Below the pieces are notes generated by a model. It saw nothing but the letters and a program-made list of their open reading frames with translations. It was not told the DNA's origin and did no database searches. 64,000 nt of DNA from Streptomyces sp. CG1. Its GTDB lineage: Bacteria > Actinomycetota > Actinomycetes > Streptomycetales > Streptomycetaceae. The stretch is from the NCBI RefSeq assembly GCF_041080625.1, contig NZ_CP163518.1, forward strand, positions 2,294,001-2,358,000. Reading direction: 5' to 3'. This document shows positions 6,867-20,315 of this stretch, one piece after another; within the stretch, counting starts at the first letter, position 1, and the number at the start of each line of letters is the position of its first letter. The translations under genes were made by a program, and so were the position numbers.

Positions 6867-9800
6867 TCACGCCGGCTTCTTGAACATCCTCGTCGCGGTG
6901 ATCTCGCTGTGCACCGCCTCTCCGGCCTGGGCCTGCTGCGGCAGTCCGGGCCGGAGGTGCTCCTCCACGCTGATGTACTTCAGGCCCGCCCTGAGGTCGG
7001 CGTCGTTGCGCAGCCGGATGACCAGCGGGAACTCGGCGAGCGCGGTGGTGTCGAACAGGCCGGTGGTGTACAGCAGCTGCACACCGAGCGCGTCCGACAC
7101 GGCCCGCTGCAGCTCCAGCAGGTATGTGGCGTTGGCGCGGCCGATGGGGTTGTCCAGGAAGAGCGTGCCGGCGTGCCGGTGCTTGTCCCGGCCTCGGTCG
7201 TTCGAACGCAGGGCGGCCATCGTGCAGTACAACGCGATGGCGGCGGTGAGCAGCTGACCGCCGGAGAACACATCGCCCATCTGGCCGACCGGGACGCGTT
7301 CCGCGCGCAGTACGGCGTCCGGCTTGAGGATCTCGACCGCGACACCCTTCGGCTGAAGGGCGGCTGCGACCCCCCGCAGCAGCAGGGACATGCCGTCGCG
7401 GCGCAGGTCGGAGTTCTTCTTCACAGCCGCGCGCGTGGCCTCGTCGATGACCTCGCCGAGCCGCTCGGTGAGGGTGGCCTGGTCGGGCTCCTCGAAGCGG
7501 ATGCGCAGGAACTCCTGCCCGGACCACTCACCGAGGCCCTCCGGGAGACGGGAGAGCCGCTGGGCGGAGCGCAGGGTGGCGAGGGCGGACTCGACCAGCC
7601 CCCGCAGGCGGTCCACGATCGAGTCGCGGTTGCGCTCCAGCTGGGCCAATTCGTCGGTCAGGACGCGCAGTCGGGGCGCGAAGGCGTCCGCCCACTTCTG
7701 CGCGTGCTCCGGCAGCGCGGCCGCGGGCAGTTCGCGGATCTGCTGCCGGGCGGGAGTGCGGACCTGCTCGTAGCGTGTGGAGTTGGCGTGCCGGACCAGC
7801 ACATCGCCGGCCTCGCGTACGGCCGCCTCGGCGGCGGACAGGTCGGCGGCGCAGCCGCGCAGCGAGCGGCGGGCCTCTGCGGATGAGTGCCGGGCCTCCT
7901 CCAGGCTGCCGGGGTACGGCTCCGGTTCCTCCTGCTCCTCCTCGGGGGCGTGCTCACGCAGCAGGTCGCGGAGCATCGCGGCGATCTCGTCGAAGCCGCC
8001 GACCGCGTCCTCGGCGGCCCGGTGCGCCTCCAGCAGCTCGGCGTGTGCCTCGCGGGCCTCCGTCAACGCCTCGGTGCGGGAGGCCAGTTCGCCGGTCGCG
8101 GTGCGCAGCAGCGCCTGGGCGTGCTCGGCGTCGCGCGGTTGCAGTTCCTCGGGCAGCTCGGTGTGTGCCTCGCCGTCCTCGGGGGAGTGCCGTTCGGCCT
8201 CGCCGCGCAGCCGGCCGAGCTGCTCGCTCGCCGTCGACATGCGGGTCTCCAGGAGCTGCACCAGCTCCTCGGCGCGGGCGGCGGCGGCCTGCCGGGAGGG
8301 ACCATCGGAGCCGTCGGGCGACTGAAGCAGCTGCTCCGCGCGGGTGCGGACCTTGTTGCTGAGCCGGTCCAGATCGGCGCGGGCAGCACTCTCGTCGCTC
8401 TCCGCGCGGGCCTGCTCGGCGCGCAGGTCGGCGCCGACGCCGACCTTCTCATACACCTGGGAGGCGGCCCGGTAGGCCTCGCGGAGGGCGGGCAGGGACG
8501 CCTTGGGGGCGTCCGCGTCCTCGACCGGTACGTCGTCCGGGGCGCCGGCGATCTCGGAGCGCTCGGCGCGCAGGGCGCGGGCGGTGCGGCGGGCGTCGTC
8601 GGCGGCGCGCTGGGCGGCGCGGCGGTCCTCGTCGGCGGCGCGGGCGCGCTCCAGGCAGGCCTGCGCTCGGGCCTCGGACTCCGTCGCCTCGTCGGCGAGT
8701 TCGCGCAGCCGGGCCTGCCAGCCGGCGCGTTCGCGCAGCCGGTGGGCGAGTCCGGCGAGGGCGTCGGCGGCGCGGCGCGCCTTCTGCGCGGTCTCCTGCC
8801 GCTCGTCGCGGACCTGTGCGGCCTCGGCGGCGGCCTCGTCGGCTTCCGCGCGCAAGGTGCGTGCCGCGGCCAGCTCGGCCTCGGTCTCCCCGGCGAACGC
8901 CCGGGACTCCTCGGCGGCCTGGGCCAGCTCGGTGAGGCGGCCGGCGGGGCAGCCGGTGCGCCAGGAGGAGAGCCGGGCCGCCAGTTCGCGGTCCTTGCCG
9001 AGGCGGGCGGCGAGGGTGCGGATCTCCTCGTCGCGCTCGGTCGCCCGCGCGCGCAGCGCCTGCCGTTCCTCGTCAGCGGCGTGCTCGTCGTGCATGGCCG
9101 GGTTCGGCGGCACGAGGAAGACGTCACCGGGTGCGGCGCTGTCGGCGGGCGGCGGGGCGAGCAGGGCGGCGGCCGTGCCGACGGCGACGGCGGAGCGGGG
9201 CAGCAGGGCTGCGTCGCCGAGCGCCTCGCGGGCACGCGCGTGTGTGTCCGGGTCGGTGATGATCACGCCGTCGACCAGTTCCGGGCGGGCGGCGAGCACG
9301 CGTGCGTGGTCGGCGGGGTCGACGGCCTGGGCGAGATAGCGCCAGCCTGGCAGCGCCGGGATGCCGTGCTCGCCGAGGAACTCCACCGTGGCGAGGACGT
9401 CCGGGCCGGGCGGGAGCAGTCCGCCGTCACCGAGGGCGCCGAGGATCCGGGAGTCGTCGGCGGCTGCCGTGCGCAGCTCGAAGAGGTGCCGTTCGGCACT
9501 CGACACGGCGTCGTCCAGCAACTCCCGCAACTCGTCCGCGAAGCGGTCGAGTTCCTCGGAGGTGAGCGGGCCCTCGGCGGGGACGGCGGAGTCCGCCGCA
9601 GACCCCGCGCGCGTGTCGTCGTCCATGTCCGCCCTCGGGGCGGGCACCCGCGCCCGGCCCGGCGCCCCCGGCAGGCTGAGCAGTTCCGCGAGCCGCTCCT
9701 CGGCGGCCAGGGACTCGGCGAGGCGCCGCTCGGCCTCGTGGGCGCGCTCGGCCGCCGTCGCGGCGTCCGCCGCGCGGGCCGCGGTCAGTTCCGCCCGGGA

Positions 9801-11510
9801 CTCCGCGGAGGCCGCCTCGCGCGCGTGCTCGGTGACCTTGCGGGCGGCCTCACGGGCGGCGTCCCAGGCGGCGACGGCGGCCTTCTCGGCGTCGCTGGCG
9901 GCCAGCGCGGCCCGCGCCGGGTCGGCGTCCGGGGCGCTGTCGTCCAGCCAGCCCGCGCGGACCGCCTCGGCGGTCTCCTGCTCCACCTCGGCGAGGCGCT
10001 GGCGCAGATGCCCGGTCTCGCTGCGGGCGCGCTGCGCCTCGGTCGCGGCGGCGGTGGAGTCGCGGTAGGCGCGGTCGCTGACCTCCTGCAGCGCGGCAGA
10101 GCGCTCCTCCCCCTCGTTGGCGAGTGCCTCGGCGCTCTCGGCGGCCGCGTGCAGGGCCCGTACGAGATCCACGGCGGCCTTGGCGCGCGCGGCGAGCGCG
10201 GGCGCGGCGTCCCGCTCGGCCTCCTGGATGGCGGCGGACACCCGCGCGACACGGTCGGCGGCGGCGCGGTGGCGCAGCACGGCCTCGGCGGCCTGCCAGG
10301 CGGAGTGCAGGGTGCGCGCGTCGGCCAGCTCGCGCTTCTGTGCGGCGGCGGACTTCTCGGCGGCGGCGAGCGCCAACGAGGCGTGCCGGAAGGCGAGTTC
10401 GGCGGCGGTCAGGGCGCTGCGTCCGCGGGCGCCCTCGGAGTGCGTGACGGCGTATGCGGCGGCCGTGACCCGCTGGGCGAGGTCCGCGGCCCGCACCCGC
10501 TCCCGCACCGCCCGCGCGGACAGCCTCCGGGCGAGGGTGCGGGTACGGCGCTCGGCGCCGGCGTGGATGTCACGCGCGCGTGAGCGGGCCTCGGCGGCCT
10601 CGACGATCCGGCCGAGCAGGTCGACCGACCCGGCGGTGAAGTCCCGTTCGGCGATCAGTTCGGCGCGTCGGCCCAGCTTGTTGCCGAAGCCGCTGACCAG
10701 GTCGGCGAGGCCGTCGGTGTCACGGGTGTCGGTGACGGCGCGCAGCAGCAGGTCGGTGAAGTCGGAGTCCTTCTTGACCGCGAAGAGACCGGCCGCCTCG
10801 CCCTCGTCGGCGTTCATCTCCCGCTGGTAGCGGAAGAGTTCGGGGTCGAGGCCGAGGTCGCCGAGGTGCTCGATCCAGCGGTCGTGGATCTCCTCCCAGT
10901 GCACCTCCAGATGGGGGTAGGTCTTGCCCGCCTCCATCAGGGCGTCGCGGAAGCCCTTCATGGTGCGGCGCCGGCCCTGGGCGCCGGAGGCGCCCTCGAC
11001 GGGCGGCCGTACGGCGGTGGCCTCGGCGACCGGAAGGTTGTCCAGGCTCAGGCCGGGCCCGGGCCGGAACGAGTACCAGGCCTCGGCGAACTTCCGCGGG
11101 TCGTTGGACACCTGCCGCCCGCGCCACTCGCTCACCTTGCCGACGACGACGCACTCGCCGGTCTGCACATGCTGCCACTCCAGCGCCACGTGTCCGCAGT
11201 CGTCGGCCAGCAGGAACTTGCGCAGCACACCGGAGCTGGCGCCGCCGAGGGTGTTGCGGTGGCCCGGCAGCATGACCGAGAAGATCAGCTTGAGCAGGAC
11301 GGACTTGCCGCCGCCGTTCTCCAGGAAGAGCACGCCGGCGGGCGCGGGCCGGCGCGGCGGGCCGGACGGCTCCTCCTCGAAGAACTCCGCCTGCATGGGC
11401 GCCGGGTCGGGCACGGGCTCGCCGACACCCCGCAGGTCAAGCACGGTGTCGGCATAGCGCGCACCGGCGGGACCGATGGAGTAGAGGCGGACCCGGGACA
11501 GCTCGTACAT
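6867..11510 (-). CDS. Giant SMC/MukB/JetC-like coiled-coil ATPase
   Basis: Protein of 1547 aa built like a Rad50/MukB-type ATPase: an N-terminal head half with Walker A LFLENGGGKS (61-70), about 1300 residues of Ala/Glu/Arg-rich heptad sequence with a probable hinge in the middle, then a C-terminal head half with ABC signature FSGGQ (1415-1419) and Walker B GTLFLDN (D1453, N1454). The residue after the Walker B Asp is Asn rather than the catalytic Glu usual in SMC heads (codon 7149-7151). It is last in a three-gene minus-strand set behind a winged-helix protein and a kleisin-like protein, the gene order of MukFEB/MksFEB and of Wadjet JetABC. No JetD-like nuclease is adjacent. A role in chromosome or plasmid DNA handling is inferred. 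A generic SbcC-like repair ATPase is the alternative. Confidence 0.75.
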   Translation of the reverse strand: MYELSRVRLYSIGPAGARYADTVLDLRGVGEPVPDPAPMQAEFFEEEPSGPPRRPAPAGVLFLENGGGKSVLLKLIFSVMLPGHRNTLGGASSGVLRKFLLADDCGHVALEWQHVQTGECVVVGKVSEWRGRQVSNDPRKFAEAWYSFRPGPGLSLDNLPVAEATAVRPPVEGASGAQGRRRTMKGFRDALMEAGKTYPHLEVHWEEIHDRWIEHLGDLGLDPELFRYQREMNADEGEAAGLFAVKKDSDFTDLLLRAVTDTRDTDGLADLVSGFGNKLGRRAELIAERDFTAGSVDLLGRIVEAAEARSRARDIHAGAERRTRTLARRLSARAVRERVRAADLAQRVTAAAYAVTHSEGARGRSALTAAELAFRHASLALAAAEKSAAAQKRELADARTLHSAWQAAEAVLRHRAAADRVARVSAAIQEAERDAAPALAARAKAAVDLVRALHAAAESAEALANEGEERSAALQEVSDRAYRDSTAAATEAQRARSETGHLRQRLAEVEQETAEAVRAGWLDDSAPDADPARAALAASDAEKAAVAAWDAAREAARKVTEHAREAASAESRAELTAARAADAATAAERAHEAERRLAESLAAEERLAELLSLPGAPGRARVPAPRADMDDDTRAGSAADSAVPAEGPLTSEELDRFADELRELLDDAVSSAERHLFELRTAAADDSRILGALGDGGLLPPGPDVLATVEFLGEHGIPALPGWRYLAQAVDPADHARVLAARPELVDGVIITDPDTHARAREALGDAALLPRSAVAVGTAAALLAPPPADSAAPGDVFLVPPNPAMHDEHAADEERQALRARATERDEEIRTLAARLGKDRELAARLSSWRTGCPAGRLTELAQAAEESRAFAGETEAELAAARTLRAEADEAAAEAAQVRDERQETAQKARRAADALAGLAHRLRERAGWQARLRELADEATESEARAQACLERARAADEDRRAAQRAADDARRTARALRAERSEIAGAPDDVPVEDADAPKASLPALREAYRAASQVYEKVGVGADLRAEQARAESDESAARADLDRLSNKVRTRAEQLLQSPDGSDGPSRQAAAARAEELVQLLETRMSTASEQLGRLRGEAERHSPEDGEAHTELPEELQPRDAEHAQALLRTATGELASRTEALTEAREAHAELLEAHRAAEDAVGGFDEIAAMLRDLLREHAPEEEQEEPEPYPGSLEEARHSSAEARRSLRGCAADLSAAEAAVREAGDVLVRHANSTRYEQVRTPARQQIRELPAAALPEHAQKWADAFAPRLRVLTDELAQLERNRDSIVDRLRGLVESALATLRSAQRLSRLPEGLGEWSGQEFLRIRFEEPDQATLTERLGEVIDEATRAAVKKNSDLRRDGMSLLLRGVAAALQPKGVAVEILKPDAVLRAERVPVGQMGDVFSGGQLLTAAIALYCTMAALRSNDRGRDKHRHAGTLFLDNPIGRANATYLLELQRAVSDALGVQLLYTTGLFDTTALAEFPLVIRLRNDADLRAGLKYISVEEHLRPGLPQQAQAGEAVHSEITATRMFKKPA

Positions 11511-11573
11511 GGCGGACTCTCGTAAGTCTGGTGAAAGGTGCGGTGGTTCAGGGGCTTGTGGCGCTTGTGCGCC

Positions 11574-12452
11574 TCAGGAGTGGAACGGCAGCCCGGCGTC
11601 GGCCACCAGCTCCAGGTCCTCGGTGTCGTCGGCGGGCAGCAGGCTGGCCGTGCCGTCGGTCACCGGTACGACGCCCAGCTCGAGCAGTTCGGCCAGGGCG
11701 GCGCTCCCTGCCATGTCCCGGACCTGGAGCTGGTAGCGGGCCGTGGTGCGGTACGTGCCGCCGCTGTCGTCGCCGGTGCGCTGCAGAAAACCCGAGTCGG
11801 TGAGGAAGGCCAGGGCCTTGGCGACGATGCCGGTGGTGGAGGCGGCCGGGCGGCGGGCGTCCTTGGTGGCGCCGGTGGCGCTGCGTCTGGCCCAGATCCG
11901 CCAGGCGGCCTCAAGGCCGGGCGCGTCGGTCGCCGGGTCGGTGTTCTCGCCCAGTTCCCCGGCCCGTTCCTCCAGGCGCCGGCAGGCCTGCCGTACGAAC
12001 GCGTCGACGCCGTTGACGGTGACGCGGCCGATGTAGGTGTCGTCGGCCAGGTCCTCCGGGCGCGGGAACGCCAGTGCGGCGGCGGCGAGATGGGCGAGGC
12101 CGTGCAGGAAGCGGTCGCCGGAGTCGGCGGCGGTGCGACGCGCGTAGTCACCCATGCGGACGGCGAACACCGAGTCCTCGGCGGCTGTCACGGCCATCCC
12201 CGCCCGCGGGGAGACCTCCAGCACGACGAGGCCCAGACCGGCGGCGACGGCGTCGGCGAGCCGCGCGAACGCCGGGTCGTCCCGGTAGCGGCGCAGCAGC
12301 TCCGTGTACTCCTGGTCCCGCGCGGGCTGCAGCTTGGGCTGCAGCCCGAAGGCGACGAGCCGCGCCGCGTCGGCGGCGTCGGCGGGGGTGGCGGCGGAAC
12401 CGGCCGGCGCGGCGGCGGGCTCGGGCTCACTCCGGTCGACGTGCTCGGTCAC
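11574..12452 (-). CDS. Winged-helix partner of SMC-like ATPase (MukE/JetB-like candidate)
   Basis: Unrecognised protein of about 292 aa. GTG at 12452 has AAGGAG eight bases upstream and is preferred to upstream in-frame alternatives. The first 40 residues are acidic and Ala/Pro-rich. The core is helical, and the C-terminal half (around GIVAKALAFLTDSGFLQRTGD and GTYRTTARYQLQVRDM) looks like a winged-helix unit. It sits 31 bp after the kleisin-like gene and 63 bp before the SMC-like gene. In MukBEF, MksBEF and JetABC systems the middle gene encodes a small tandem winged-helix dimer (MukE/JetB) that binds the kleisin. Position, size and fold suggestion fit that role, but I see no direct sequence signature, so the assignment is inference. 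Confidence 0.6.
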   Translation of the reverse strand: MTEHVDRSEPEPAAAPAGSAATPADAADAARLVAFGLQPKLQPARDQEYTELLRRYRDDPAFARLADAVAAGLGLVVLEVSPRAGMAVTAAEDSVFAVRMGDYARRTAADSGDRFLHGLAHLAAAALAFPRPEDLADDTYIGRVTVNGVDAFVRQACRRLEERAGELGENTDPATDAPGLEAAWRIWARRSATGATKDARRPAASTTGIVAKALAFLTDSGFLQRTGDDSGGTYRTTARYQLQVRDMAGSAALAELLELGVVPVTDGTASLLPADDTEDLELVADAGLPFHS

Positions 12453-12483
12453 GGCTTCGGCTCCTTGTCGCGTTCTTGTTTGC

Positions 12484-14013
12484 TCATGCTGCTTCCGTCC
12501 GGTCCGCAGCCATCCCCGCCGCATCCAGCAACGCGGTCCCCACGATCAGATCGGCCCCGCCGAACTCGGGATCGTCCAGCTCGGTCCCGTCGTCCACGGC
12601 GAACAACAGCTTCTCCTCGCCCTGCCGGTAGGCCGTACCGACAGCGGGACTGGCCGCGTGGACCGCCAACAGGGCCACCAGATAGGCCAGATCGGGATCC
12701 CCGGTCCGCCGTGCCTCGGCCAGCAGGCCCGACAGTCTGCGCGGCGCATCGGCTGGAAGGTCCAGCAGCTCCATCGCGGCGGCCAGTTGCTCCTCGCTGA
12801 ACCGGCTGTCGTCCGGCGTGGCGATCAGATCCGGCTCCGGCATCTCCGCGCCCAGATGCTCCCGCTCCACCGGCGGCGTCAGCAGGATCTCGACAAGGTC
12901 GCCGACCCGAACCGACACCGGCGTACGCAGCCCCGTGCCGTTCGCGAAGAACGCGTCCGTGACCCGGATCGCCTGTTCCAGCGGCAACGGCAGGACGGGG
13001 GCGAGGAGATGGCCGTACAGGTCCGTCCCGGAGGTGGTCGCCGGTGTGGCGAAGGCCTGCCGGTCCTGTTCGGCGCGGAACAGCGGGCCCGCCTCCAGCA
13101 GCCGCGACTGCAGCTGGGTGTGCCGCCGGATGCAGTCCTTGACGATGTCGACCAGCTCGGCGGCACGCCGCTTGTGCTCGGGCTCCTCGGTCTCGTCGCG
13201 GGCCTTGCGGATGTTCGTGAGGATCGCGTTCTCGTGGCGGTAGCGGTCGGCCACGTGGTCCAGGGCCTCGGCGATCATGTCGGGCACGGCGCCCAGCCAG
13301 TCGACCGCGCGGACGTTGCGCCGGGTGGCTTCCAGGGCGCGGCGCAGGGTCTCCGAGTACTGCACCGTGCGGTAGCGGGCCTGCTCGGCGGCGAGCTGGG
13401 CGTCGGCCAGCCGGCCGCGGCTGATCAGCACCTCCAGCTTGACCTCGGCGGCGATCTGGGCGCTGGTGACGTCGGTGTCGAGGGCGCCGACGAGGACGTT
13501 GACCGCCTCGTCCGTCGTGCGCAGATAGACCGTGCCGCCGGGGCCGGGGACCTCTTCGATCAGCTTGAAGTCGTAGTCCCTGCGGACGTACGTGCCGTCC
13601 GAGGCGAAGGTGCCGTAGACGGCGCGGAAACCGCGGTCGACACTGCCGACGTTGATCAGGTTCTCCAGGACCCAGCGGGCCACGCGCTCGTGCTCGGCGG
13701 TGGGCCGGTGCGCGGCCTGGGCGGCGATGCGCGGGACGAGCCGGGCCACGATCTGCTCGTGGTCGGCGCCGGTGTCGAAGTCCATGTTGAGCGTGACCAG
13801 GTCGATGGCGGCGAGAGCCACCTCGGCCATGCCGTACACCGAGTACTCACCGGCCAGATTGGCCTTGCGCGCGTCGAGGTCGTGCAGCGGCGCGGTGCAG
13901 GCGAGCGCGCGCAGCCGCCGCGCCAGTCCCTCGTCGGCGGCCGGGCCCGGTGCCGGGCGCGGCCCCGCGCTGAGCTGGGGCGGAACGCTGTCCGTCGGTG
14001 CAGGCGAAGTCAC
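12484..14013 (-). CDS. Kleisin-like subunit of SMC-like system (MukF/JetA-like candidate)
   Basis: Unrecognised protein of about 509 aa. A GTG start at 14013 is chosen because a TAGTCT -10-like hexamer lies exactly 7 nt upstream, the layout of a leaderless Streptomyces mRNA; an ATG 30 bp further upstream has no ribosome-binding site. The N-terminal third contains a helical/winged-helix-like block (GMAEVALAAIDLVTLNMDF to FRAVYGTFASDGTYVRRDYDFKL). The middle is a long helical stretch (about 190-330) rich in Arg/Glu/Gln. The C-terminus is compact (EEQLAAAMELLDLPADAPRRL). This head-helical-neck-tail plan and its place as first gene before a winged-helix protein and a giant SMC-like ATPase match MukF/MksF/JetA kleisins. 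The identification is structural and contextual only. Confidence 0.6.
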   Translation of the reverse strand: MTSPAPTDSVPPQLSAGPRPAPGPAADEGLARRLRALACTAPLHDLDARKANLAGEYSVYGMAEVALAAIDLVTLNMDFDTGADHEQIVARLVPRIAAQAAHRPTAEHERVARWVLENLINVGSVDRGFRAVYGTFASDGTYVRRDYDFKLIEEVPGPGGTVYLRTTDEAVNVLVGALDTDVTSAQIAAEVKLEVLISRGRLADAQLAAEQARYRTVQYSETLRRALEATRRNVRAVDWLGAVPDMIAEALDHVADRYRHENAILTNIRKARDETEEPEHKRRAAELVDIVKDCIRRHTQLQSRLLEAGPLFRAEQDRQAFATPATTSGTDLYGHLLAPVLPLPLEQAIRVTDAFFANGTGLRTPVSVRVGDLVEILLTPPVEREHLGAEMPEPDLIATPDDSRFSEEQLAAAMELLDLPADAPRRLSGLLAEARRTGDPDLAYLVALLAVHAASPAVGTAYRQGEEKLLFAVDDGTELDDPEFGGADLIVGTALLDAAGMAADRTEAA

Positions 14014-14020
14014 GGTGCAC

Positions 14021-14026
14021 AGACTA
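14021..14026 (-). promoter_or_regulatory. Putative -10 hexamer of leaderless kleisin-like gene
   Basis: On the minus strand TAGTCT lies 7 nt before the GTG at 14013. TANNNT at this distance from a start codon is the usual arrangement for leaderless transcripts in Streptomyces. No convincing -35 was found, so confidence is low. Confidence 0.3.
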
Positions 14027-14106
14027 GGTCCTCGGTCTGACATCGACCCAAACGAGCGGCTCCGCGGTGTTTGGCCGACAGAGCCGACCGATGCGGCACC
14101 GGGCCC

Positions 14107-14796
14107 CTACGGGGCGACCCGTCGCCGGTACACCTCCACCACCCGCTCCAGCGAGTCCCTGAGGTACGTCTCCAGCAGCTGCTCGGCCTCGCGCTTGTCG
14201 CCGGCCTGCAGCGCCCGCAGGATCTCGCGGTTGCGGGCGAGGTAGGGCTCGTGCAGCCGGCGCGGGTCGTCGACGACGTGGAAGGCGAGCCGCAGTTCGG
14301 CGAAGACGCTGCGCATCAGTTCGTCGGTGCGTTCGCTGCCGGCGAGGGCGACCAGTTCCCGATGGAAGTGGATGTTGGCGGTGCCCAGCACCTTCCAGTC
14401 GTTCCCGGCGGCCGCCGACTCGCCCTCGGCCACGGCCGCGGCCACCCCCTCCAGCCCGTACGGCGGCTCGCCGAGCCCGCGGACGACGGCGCACTCGATC
14501 AGGGAGCGCATGCGGTAGATGTCCTCGACGTCCTCGACGGTCAGGACCCGCACGAACACACCGCGGTTGAGTTCGTGGACCAGCAGGCGTTCGTGCGTGA
14601 GCAGCCGGAACGCCTCACGCAGGGTGTTGCGGGACACCCCGAGCGCCCCGCCGATGCCGTCCTCCGACAGCCGGGTGCCGGGCGGGAAGTACCCGTCGGC
14701 GATACGGGTCCGGAGGATGTCCGACACCCGTTCCGCCGTGCTCGTGCGCCCCAGGAGCGCACGGTCGTCGGCCAGTGCCGTCAACTGCTCTGCCAT
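14107..14796 (-). CDS. GntR/FCD-family transcriptional regulator
   Basis: Regulator of 229 aa. The N-terminal GntR winged helix is visible at about 20-85 (AERVSDILRTRIADGYFPPGTRLSE followed by GALGVSRNTLREAFRLL). The rest is an all-helical FCD effector domain with metal-ligand His residues in NIHFHRELVALAG and in the later ELRLAFHVVDDP segment. A 13-bp inverted repeat about 50 bp upstream of the start is a likely own operator. FCD regulators commonly sense small carboxylates and control catabolic genes; whether this one controls the choline cluster, the SMC-like genes or something else cannot be decided from sequence. The SMC-like operon starts about 90 bp downstream on the same strand, with its own putative promoter. 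Confidence 0.88.
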   Translation of the reverse strand: MAEQLTALADDRALLGRTSTAERVSDILRTRIADGYFPPGTRLSEDGIGGALGVSRNTLREAFRLLTHERLLVHELNRGVFVRVLTVEDVEDIYRMRSLIECAVVRGLGEPPYGLEGVAAAVAEGESAAAGNDWKVLGTANIHFHRELVALAGSERTDELMRSVFAELRLAFHVVDDPRRLHEPYLARNREILRALQAGDKREAEQLLETYLRDSLERVVEVYRRRVAP

Positions 14797-18598: not shown

Positions 18599-20017
18599 TC
18601 AGCCGAGAGCGGCGTCGGGTCCGAAGCGGCTGCGGACCGCCGTCTGCACCTCAGCCTCCTCGGCCGGGTCGGCGGCCAGGCGGCGCAGGCGCTCCACGAC
18701 CCGGGTGTCGCCGGTCTCGGCGTGCCGGGCGGCGAGTTCGCGGGTGGTCTCCTCGCAGTCCCACAGGCATTCGACGGCGAAGCCGGTGGCGAAGGAGGGG
18801 TCGGTGGCGGCCAGGGCGCGGGCGGCGCGCCCGCGGAGATGGGAGGAGGCCGTCTCGCGGTAGATGTGGCGCAGGACGGGGGCGGCGCAGGCGATGCCGA
18901 GGCGGCCGGTGCCGTCGACGAGGGTCCACAGCGTGGGCGCGTCGGGTCCTTCGCCGCGTACGGCCTCGCGGAGGGCGCCGAGGACGAGGTCGCGGTCCTG
19001 GACGCCGCCGCGGCAGGCGAGCATGCGTCCGGCGGCGGCCCCGAGCACATCAGGGCGCTGCGCCCAGCGGCGCGCACGGTCGACGGCGGCGATACTGCGC
19101 ATCCGTTCGAAGGCGTCGACGGCGGCCTCCACGACGACGATCGTGCCGTCGATGACGGCGGCCTCGATCAGGTCGAGCGCCTCGGGGTCGTTGCTGTCGG
19201 CGAGGTAGCGCAGCGCGGTGCAGCGGGCGCCGTCGATGCCGGTCCGGGCGGCCTGGACGATCTCCGGCCGGTCCTCGGGGCCGGCCACGGCGACCAGGCA
19301 GCGGGCGGCCGGCACATGGAGGGCGGCGCCGCGCTCGATGCCCTGCTGGGCCCATTCGAAGACGGCGCGCACGCTCCATCCGGGGCGTGGGCCGGTGGGC
19401 CGCATCTGGCGCTGCCAGCGGTCGAAACAGCCGGTCTCCTGTGCGGCACGCACGCGCGTGGCGATCGACGCGCGCGGATCCTCGGCCCACAGACGCCAGG
19501 GCCTCGGCTCGAAGGCGTCGCGTACGGCGGCGGCCAGCTCGGCCTCGCCCTCGGGGTCGGTGGCGAAGCGGGCCAGGACGGGCGCGGCGAGGGCGCGCAG
19601 GCCCGCGTCGTCGTCCCTGAGGGCCAGCTCGTCCAGGGCCCAGGCCCAGCTGGAGCCGTGGGCGGCGTACCTGCGGAGCAGGTCGAGCGCGTCCTGCCTG
19701 CCGTAGGAGGCGAGGTGCCCGAGCACGGCCAGCGCGAGGCCGGTGCGGGACTCGTCGGTGTCGAGGACGTCCTCGGGGTCGAAGAGGTGCGCCTCGATCG
19801 CGTCCAGCCCGCCGTTCAGGTCGAGGTAGAGCCGGGCGTAGTAGAGGGAGCGGTTCTCCACCTGCCAGTCGTGGCGGGGATCGCGCAGCACACAGTGGTT
19901 CAGGGCCGCGAGCGCTTCGGCGCGCGGGGCGGTGAGCGCGTGCAGCGTGCCGTCGCCGCGGCCCCGCTGGAGCAGGCCGAGCAGCGTACCGCTGGGCGCT
20001 ATGACCGGATCGAACAT
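18599..20017 (-). CDS. HEAT-repeat-like helical protein
   Basis: Protein of 472 aa beginning at ATG 20017 with GAGG about 10 bases upstream. It is made almost entirely of short amphipathic helix pairs resembling HEAT/PBS-lyase-type repeats, for example ALAVLGHLASYGRQDALDLL, LRGRAARALAATDPSFATGF, RELAARHAETGDTRVVERL and CTALRYLADSNDPEALDLIEAA. No catalytic motif, signal peptide or membrane helix is visible. Such proteins are usually protein-protein scaffolds. It stands alone with its own terminator and is followed on the same strand, after about 300 bp, by a glycosyltransferase cassette. Function unknown. Confidence 0.82.
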   Translation of the reverse strand: MFDPVIAPSGTLLGLLQRGRGDGTLHALTAPRAEALAALNHCVLRDPRHDWQVENRSLYYARLYLDLNGGLDAIEAHLFDPEDVLDTDESRTGLALAVLGHLASYGRQDALDLLRRYAAHGSSWAWALDELALRDDDAGLRALAAPVLARFATDPEGEAELAAAVRDAFEPRPWRLWAEDPRASIATRVRAAQETGCFDRWQRQMRPTGPRPGWSVRAVFEWAQQGIERGAALHVPAARCLVAVAGPEDRPEIVQAARTGIDGARCTALRYLADSNDPEALDLIEAAVIDGTIVVVEAAVDAFERMRSIAAVDRARRWAQRPDVLGAAAGRMLACRGGVQDRDLVLGALREAVRGEGPDAPTLWTLVDGTGRLGIACAAPVLRHIYRETASSHLRGRAARALAATDPSFATGFAVECLWDCEETTRELAARHAETGDTRVVERLRRLAADPAEEAEVQTAVRSRFGPDAALG

Positions 20018-20315
20018 GGGAAACAGCCTCACATCAAGCGTCGACGCAACCGGAGAACACGCACTACCTGGCCGCGTGACACAACGTCGGAGCGCCCGCC
20101 GTCTCTTGCTTGCTGTAGACCATCTCTCTGCCTCTCGTCTGTGGCCCATGCGGACCGCATCACGGCCCGCGCGGTGCGGCAACACCTGCCCAGCCATCGC
20201 GTCCGTGAATCACGTCGTCATGATGACCCGCGGTGTGTGCTGCCGCGACCGTATTTCCGGCGGCCCTTTACCGCCTCCCCCGTTTTCCGTGTCGTACCTG
20301 CTCAGGACATGCGCG
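20018..20315. other. Intergenic stretch with no recognised gene
   Basis: About 300 bp between two minus-strand genes. It should contain the HEAT-repeat gene promoter and the ankyrin gene terminator. I see no coding pattern, RNA gene or strong repeat, only a weak GGCGG/CCGCC pair near 20260. Confidence 0.5.

Follow-up and report, generated by a model that had tools for sequence, protein, structure and literature searches.

A JetD-less JetABC set in the core genome of Streptomycetaceae and its putative place in a DNA damage regulon

The 64,000-nt stretch of Streptomyces sp. CG1 DNA analyzed here (the window; genome of 11.1 Mb in 2 contigs, 100% complete) carries, on the minus strand at positions 6867 to 14013, a jetA-jetB-jetC gene set of the Wadjet type III kind. 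We read this set as a Jet/Muk-type SMC complex that is independent of the nuclease JetD and belongs both to the core genome of the Streptomycetaceae and to a RecA-NDp (PafBC-type) DNA damage regulon, a reading to which we assign a probability of roughly 0.58. It probably serves DNA repair or chromosome maintenance, not plasmid defense. Taken together, conservation, a divergence resembling that of RpoB, purifying selection, the lack of a detectable nuclease, and apparent membership in a damage regulon favor a chromosomal SMC complex for damaged DNA. The complex would consist of a JetC dimer, the JetA kleisin, and the JetB winged-helix subunit, which are encoded as follows (window positions).

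12484..14013, minus strand: JetA3-type kleisin (JetA), 509 residues, GTG start; PADLOC PDLC00567, 619 bits
11574..12452, minus strand: JetB-type winged-helix (KITE-like) subunit, 292 residues; located between JetA and JetC, assigned by identity and fold matches
6867..11510, minus strand: JetC3-type SMC ATPase (JetC), 1547 residues; PADLOC JetC3 PDLC00588, 1409 bits

The three proteins and the search for JetD

An earlier note, made from the sequence alone, had described the genes as a MukBEF/Wadjet-like SMC set without JetD, and the profile and fold comparisons bear this out. While JetA and JetC were assigned by the JetA3 and JetC3 profiles, the window JetB gave no match to the PADLOC JetB3 profile and aligns at 40 to 50% identity with the JetB proteins of seven JetABCD3 loci. 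JetA has no Pfam match, hence none to the ScpA kleisin family; its predicted fold is kleisin-like, with MukF-containing entries as the best Foldseek matches, at low TM-scores (query-normalized values of 0.18 to 0.19 for the top two). For the predicted JetB fold, the best matches were MukE-MukF entries and JetABC chain C, with weak E values of 0.018 to 0.058. Structure prediction, which the note had proposed as a check, tentatively points to MukF and MukE, in the case of JetB weakly. At the sequence level, none of the MukB, MukE, and MukF models of Pfam and NCBIfam matched the Jet proteins, and a sequence comparison with solved structures gave neither MukF nor MukE up to an E value of 10. Nor does the ATPase group with SbcC/Rad50: no model of these families in Pfam or NCBIfam matched, and JetC contains no CxxC. 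Since ScpA is encoded elsewhere in the same genome, JetABC is present in addition to SMC-ScpAB and does not replace it.

Homologous JetD-less sets are represented by 93 core loci, of which 80 rank highest among at least 561 relatives, so that the sample leans to close kin, and 13 come from evenly drawn genomes. In the 11.1-Mb genome, neither PF09983 (JetD_C) nor a JetD3 profile derived from an alignment of seven JetD sequences found a match (13 of 68 first-look candidates were scored with the latter). A six-frame search with the JetD3 profile likewise returned none in the window and none in the fetched core loci, 83 of the 92 core loci having JetC offering at least 1 kb of sequence beyond it. 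As a control, a ten-JetD version of the profile without L129, a JetD-bearing Streptomyces locus, recovered the L129 JetD with an E value of 1e-68. The lack of JetD near the locus, as claimed in the note, thus holds for the window and extends to the genome by both JetD3 profile and PF09983. Because JetD was sought and not found, the set is not counted as Wadjet, despite its homology to the JetABC subunits of that system.

Distribution, inheritance, and selection

JetABC is not a patchy island but part of the core genome of the Streptomycetaceae. Of 246 Streptomyces genomes sampled evenly across the genus, 240 carried JetA3 (237 of the 239 of good quality). The same was true of 148 out of 150 genomes sampled from the Streptomycetaceae, in which 17 of 17 genera were represented. 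The JetD3 profile matched 15 of the 150 genomes of the same Streptomycetaceae draw, one of them marginally (E value of 0.004), and PF09983 was found in at least 29 of the 246 Streptomyces genomes, a lower bound because PF09983 missed L129. In a class-wide sample, 16 of 148 genomes contained JetA3; 11 of these belong to Streptomyces and 5 to another family, which, judging from named homologues, we take to be the Frankia/Pseudofrankia family; the five Frankia-family loci contain no JetD within 2.2 to 4.0 kb beyond JetC. With regard to position, the distance between core jetA and one chromosome end amounts to about 7 to 20% of the total length in 22 of the 24 single-contig Streptomyces genomes listed, to which the count is confined; the distances were taken by hand from rounded sizes (2.3 of 11.0 Mb for the genome of strain CG1).

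JetD-bearing sets also occur in the genus. In ten Streptomyces loci (L104, L120 to L124, and L126 to L129), JetD follows directly after, or overlaps, the end of JetC; L126 is cut by the contig, JetC of L123 is split over two frames, and the other loci look complete. Their JetA, JetB, and JetC proteins share 28 to 58% identity with the core proteins (best segment). The nine genomes behind those of the loci that hold JetA give two JetA3 matches each, so that the JetD-bearing set comes in addition to the JetD-less core set; in genome G112, about 0.3 Mb separates the two. At a further locus, L125 (G356:C1:1231000-1250900), the JetD3 gene is accompanied by no more than a short match to JetC, while JetA and JetB gave no match at all; it is possibly a decayed Wadjet III locus or a case of JetD with other partners.

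In the JetA tree, a single branch with a support of 100/99 unites the core copies and another (100/99) the Frankia copies, and the JetD-bearing copies are found across a branch with 90/92, the program warning of long branches, chiefly that of L128. JetA divergence follows that of RpoB: the Spearman correlation of the protein distances was 0.77 for 14 Streptomyces genomes and 0.85 for 19 genomes including Frankia, values as high occurring in 0 of 2000 permutations each, and 0.87 for the five Frankia genomes alone, which was reached by 101 of 2000 permutations.

Core JetABC is under purifying selection. The median ratio of nonsynonymous to synonymous substitution rates (dN/dS) against the window genes was 0.07 for JetA and 0.11 for JetC (14 pairs each) and 0.21 for JetB (10 pairs), the N terminus of which is variable. 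A single open frame extends over more than 88% of the length for JetA in 93/93 core loci, for JetB in 87/93, and for JetC in 76/93. The remaining JetC genes comprise eight at contig ends, six alignment artifacts with a single frame on inspection, two with frame breaks (apparently one in L056 and several in L082), and one not recovered. Within JetC, the following elements were located.

11283..11327, minus strand: Walker A, FLENGGGKSVLLKLI; identical in 84 of 93 core JetC open reading frames (ORFs), not found by pattern in 9
7218..7268, minus strand: ABC signature motif, FSGGQLLTAAIALYCTM; the same sequence in 83 of 93 core JetC ORFs, no match in 10
7128..7163, minus strand: Walker B, LFLDNPIGRANA; the same sequence in 83 of 93 core ORFs, no match in 10
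9066..9443, minus strand: probable hinge domain, residues 690 to 815 approximately; from composition only

Wherever found, the ATPase motifs of core JetC are thus identical. The putative hinge stretch is rich in glycine, proline, and hydrophobic residues and is flanked by two long, coil-like stretches rich in A, E, R, and L. The DNP triplet of Walker B was also present in 10/10 accessory and 5/5 Frankia JetC proteins. SMC proteins usually carry a catalytic glutamate where Walker B of JetC has asparagine; Walker B of type III JetC reads LDNP, with the asparagine in this place.

The promoter in front of jetA and similar sites in the genome

Two conserved elements precede the GTG start codon of JetA.

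14021..14042, minus strand: RecA-NDp (PafBC-type) promoter motif TGTCAGACC-N7-TAGTCT at -29 from JetA; sequence match
14043..14054, minus strand: conserved block CGTTTGGGTCGA directly upstream of the promoter motif; alignment of 21 core upstream regions

According to this alignment, the region upstream of JetA varies between species except for about the last 45 bases before the GTG; in the CGTTTGGGTCGA block, CGTTT is invariant and the remainder mostly kept, and the DNA farther upstream aligns poorly. The -10 element ends 7 nt before the GTG, so that the jetA mRNA is probably leaderless. The consensus of RecA-NDp/PafBC promoters is tTGTCRgtg-N8-TAnnnT, to which TGTCAGACC-N7-TAGTCT conforms except at the less conserved TG. 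Among the 93 core loci (L027, a 94th, was too short for this test), 91 have TGTCRG-N10-TANNNT upstream of JetA, 90 of these at the same offset, and the two others, L115 and L130, differ by one base at R. In the 80 loci of the genome_contigs set (L027 included), 3.24 million strand-bases contain the pattern 81 times; 80 of these sites are at JetA, and 80/80 loci have one. The window itself contains one match compared to 0.04 expected, the pattern having been written after the site was seen.

Genome-wide, TGTCAG-N10-TANNNT gave 76 sites (L155 to L230), compared to 1 for the reversed-pattern control. An ORF start supported by third-position GC content (GC3) lies at most 260 nt away from 65 of the 76 sites, and 37 of these 65 ORFs start 4 to 10 nt after the -10 element, JetA doing so at 7. 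Forty of the 65 ORFs were annotated, the first 20 having been chosen mostly for repair- or replication-like N termini and the next 20 taken unnamed, with 25 left. Repair or replication proteins account for 19 of the 40. Specifically, the 15 among the first 20 are RecA, UvrA, UvrB, RuvC, Ung, SbcD, a RarA-like ATPase, a DEDDh exonuclease, DnaE, DnaX, RadA, XseA, a UvrD/PcrA-like helicase, LigA (start 181 nt from its site), and a YoaA/DinG-like helicase, of which the RarA-like, UvrD-like, and YoaA/DinG-like proteins and the cut UvrA piece scored below curated cutoffs. The four among the next 20 are an AlkZ-like glycosylase, a PD-(D/E)XK nuclease, a RecD2-type HHH protein, and O6-methylguanine methyltransferase (MGMT). 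The other 21 are mixed or unnamed and include ribosomal protein S6, CoaE, RimO, a Mur ligase, a HAD protein, FolB, a sigma factor-like protein, and a WGR protein; two proteins with sigma-70 region 2 are encoded by genes at the 76 sites. The RecA-NDp promoter type has been described at Streptomyces recA and SCO6735 (PMC5087735; papers cited by PMC number are represented by excerpts throughout), and the PafBC motif closely resembles RecA-NDp (PMC8223512). The genomic sites suggest that a motif closely similar to the PafBC motif is in use in Streptomyces sp. CG1. The 76-site regulon bears on a possible LexA-independent damage response in Streptomyces, the existence of which PMC9380542 left open.

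Proposed role and alternative explanations

In the role we favor, DNA damage would induce the jetABC operon from its own, probably leaderless, promoter. JetABC would then load on chromosomal DNA and, if it behaves like its Jet/Muk relatives, extrude or tether loops at the expense of ATP; in this way, sister chromosomes that are broken or stalled would stay together or compact during repair. The complex probably derives from a Wadjet (JetABCD3) ancestor by loss of the nuclease, and a comparable origin has been proposed for MksBEF of Pseudomonas aeruginosa (PMC10586767). A more far-reaching version, which we hold tentatively and at somewhat less than even odds, sees in JetABC a second near-universal condensin that arose from a nuclease-less Wadjet and entered the damage regulon, i.e., a counterpart of Smc5/6 dedicated to damaged chromosomes and expressed with recA, uvrAB, and ruvC.

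Several observations weigh against a chromosomal repair complex of this kind. In other families of the same order, 12 of 15 genomes lack JetA3, and one of the three matches is weak (27 bits), so that the Streptomycetaceae either acquired the operon or alone retained it. The most widespread defense systems of a genus often spread evenly through it (PMC10482375), which weakens the argument from universality. The branch between JetD-less and JetD-bearing copies has a support of only 65/76 in the JetB+JetC tree; set against the 90/92 in the JetA tree, this makes a single loss of JetD likely rather than established. The JetA site has AC after TGTCAG, as found in 7 of the 76 genomic sites, whereas 49 have TG; the SbcD and LigA sites share the AC. 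All five Frankia JetABC loci lack the motif (0/5), and a motif search in PMC9380542 suggested that the PafBC motif of Mycobacterium smegmatis is not conserved in Streptomyces venezuelae. Finally, a similar motif precedes JetA in five of nine JetD-bearing loci (L104, L120, L123, L124, and L128, four of the five being closely related), 39 to 61 nt before the first possible JetA start. The damage-type promoter alone is thus no proof of a repair role and is compatible with defense. As an observation in its own right, the promoter at these five of nine Wadjet III loci suggests that Streptomyces Wadjet defense may itself be damage inducible.

The earlier note had set a chromosome-organizing condensin beside a defense system with another effector. 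Family-wide presence, RpoB-like divergence, and the RecA-NDp-type promoter favor the former, and the latter appears unlikely, though it is the strongest competitor. JetABC would in that case be the conserved sensor of a plasmid or phage defense whose effector is encoded elsewhere or is another nuclease, and the damage-type control would turn it on upon foreign-DNA entry or during active repair. Close homology to type III Wadjet parts, the similar promoter at five of nine JetABCD3 loci of the genus, and the even conservation that widespread defense systems can show agree with this, and an unlinked effector would be invisible to neighborhood analysis. However, the genome has no JetD3 or JetD_C match, and genes beyond JetC are poorly kept: the best-kept window gene on that side recurs in 23/80 core loci and the GMC gene in 16/80 plus 2/13, a median of about 4 kb beyond JetC being covered per locus. 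Family-wide presence with RpoB-like divergence also speaks against it, and plasmid defense in Bacillus subtilis needs all four Wadjet subunits (PMC10586767).

Plasmids or integrative elements might instead be restrained uncut, e.g., through topological trapping, a lowered copy number, or exclusion from spores, which we regard as improbable. JetABC is viewed as the component with which Wadjet senses shape (PMC10586767), and MksB of Corynebacterium glutamicum affects plasmid copy number, not chromosome organization (PMC10123090); null alleles of the nuclease gene mksG, however, also affect the copy number (PMC10123090), so that the plasmid effect in this species needs the cutter. Moreover, the DNA repair regulon context fits chromosomal damage better. 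That the set is merely a decaying remnant of a Wadjet island is very improbable. Such decay would account for the missing JetD and the frame breaks in JetC of L056 and L082, but it conflicts with the single frames of JetA and, in most loci, of JetB and JetC, with ATPase motifs identical wherever found, and with dN/dS values far below 1.

Compared with known systems, the core set shares with Wadjet type III the JetA3 and JetC3 profile families, the A-B-C gene order, the DNP of Walker B, and, at some loci, the RecA-NDp-like promoter; it differs in that no JetD was found, in its family-wide occurrence, and in its limited identity to the JetD-bearing copies of the genus. From MksBEF of P. aeruginosa, which is chromosomal and likewise lacks JetD/MksG, it is set apart by the type III sequence family of JetC and the DNA damage-type promoter. 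To MukBEF of Escherichia coli, the predicted folds of JetA and JetB provide a tentative link (best Foldseek matches, at low scores), whereas sequence matches to MukF or MukE are lacking and the Streptomyces host also has ScpA. RecN, according to abstracts an SMC-like protein of the DNA damage response, resembles the core set in the role proposed for the latter. RecN is not known to act with kleisin or KITE partners, whereas the core set is a three-gene complex. The mycobacterial EptABCD/MksBEFG and the C. glutamicum MksBEFG systems are also second SMC-type complexes in actinomycetes, but they carry a nuclease and act on plasmids (PMC10586767 and PMC10123090), while in the core set a nuclease was not found.

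Among the literature matches listed, JetABC or a second SMC complex is not described as a core feature of Streptomyces; preprints and most subscription papers lay outside this scope, and an earlier description outside the literature covered is possible. The excerpts of two Streptomyces condensin papers (PMC8410768 and PMC13121528) do not contain the word Wadjet; Mks is absent from those of the former and appears twice in those of the latter, for M. smegmatis, and the text on Mks and MukB in these excerpts concerns other bacteria. Relative to P. aeruginosa MksBEF, the core set would represent an independent example from the type III lineage that spans a whole family and comes with a hint of its regulation. 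If the favored role is correct, chromosome folding, spore segregation, and repair in Streptomyces would need reinterpretation, and JetABC would be a clear case of a defense machine made housekeeping by the loss of its weapon. PADLOC labels MukFEB-like sets "Wadjet other" (PMC9252829), and Streptomyces genomes may thus be credited with a Wadjet-type defense that does not exist.

Two neighboring genes are kept near JetABC, the first of which is not counted as part of the complex.

14107..14796, minus strand: GntR/FCD-family regulator adjoining JetA; Pfam FCD and GntR

This regulator is kept beside JetA in 79/80 plus 11/13 core loci. A HEAT repeat-like protein encoded at window positions 18599 to 20197, which scored below the Pfam cutoff, is kept near JetABC in 65/80 core loci.

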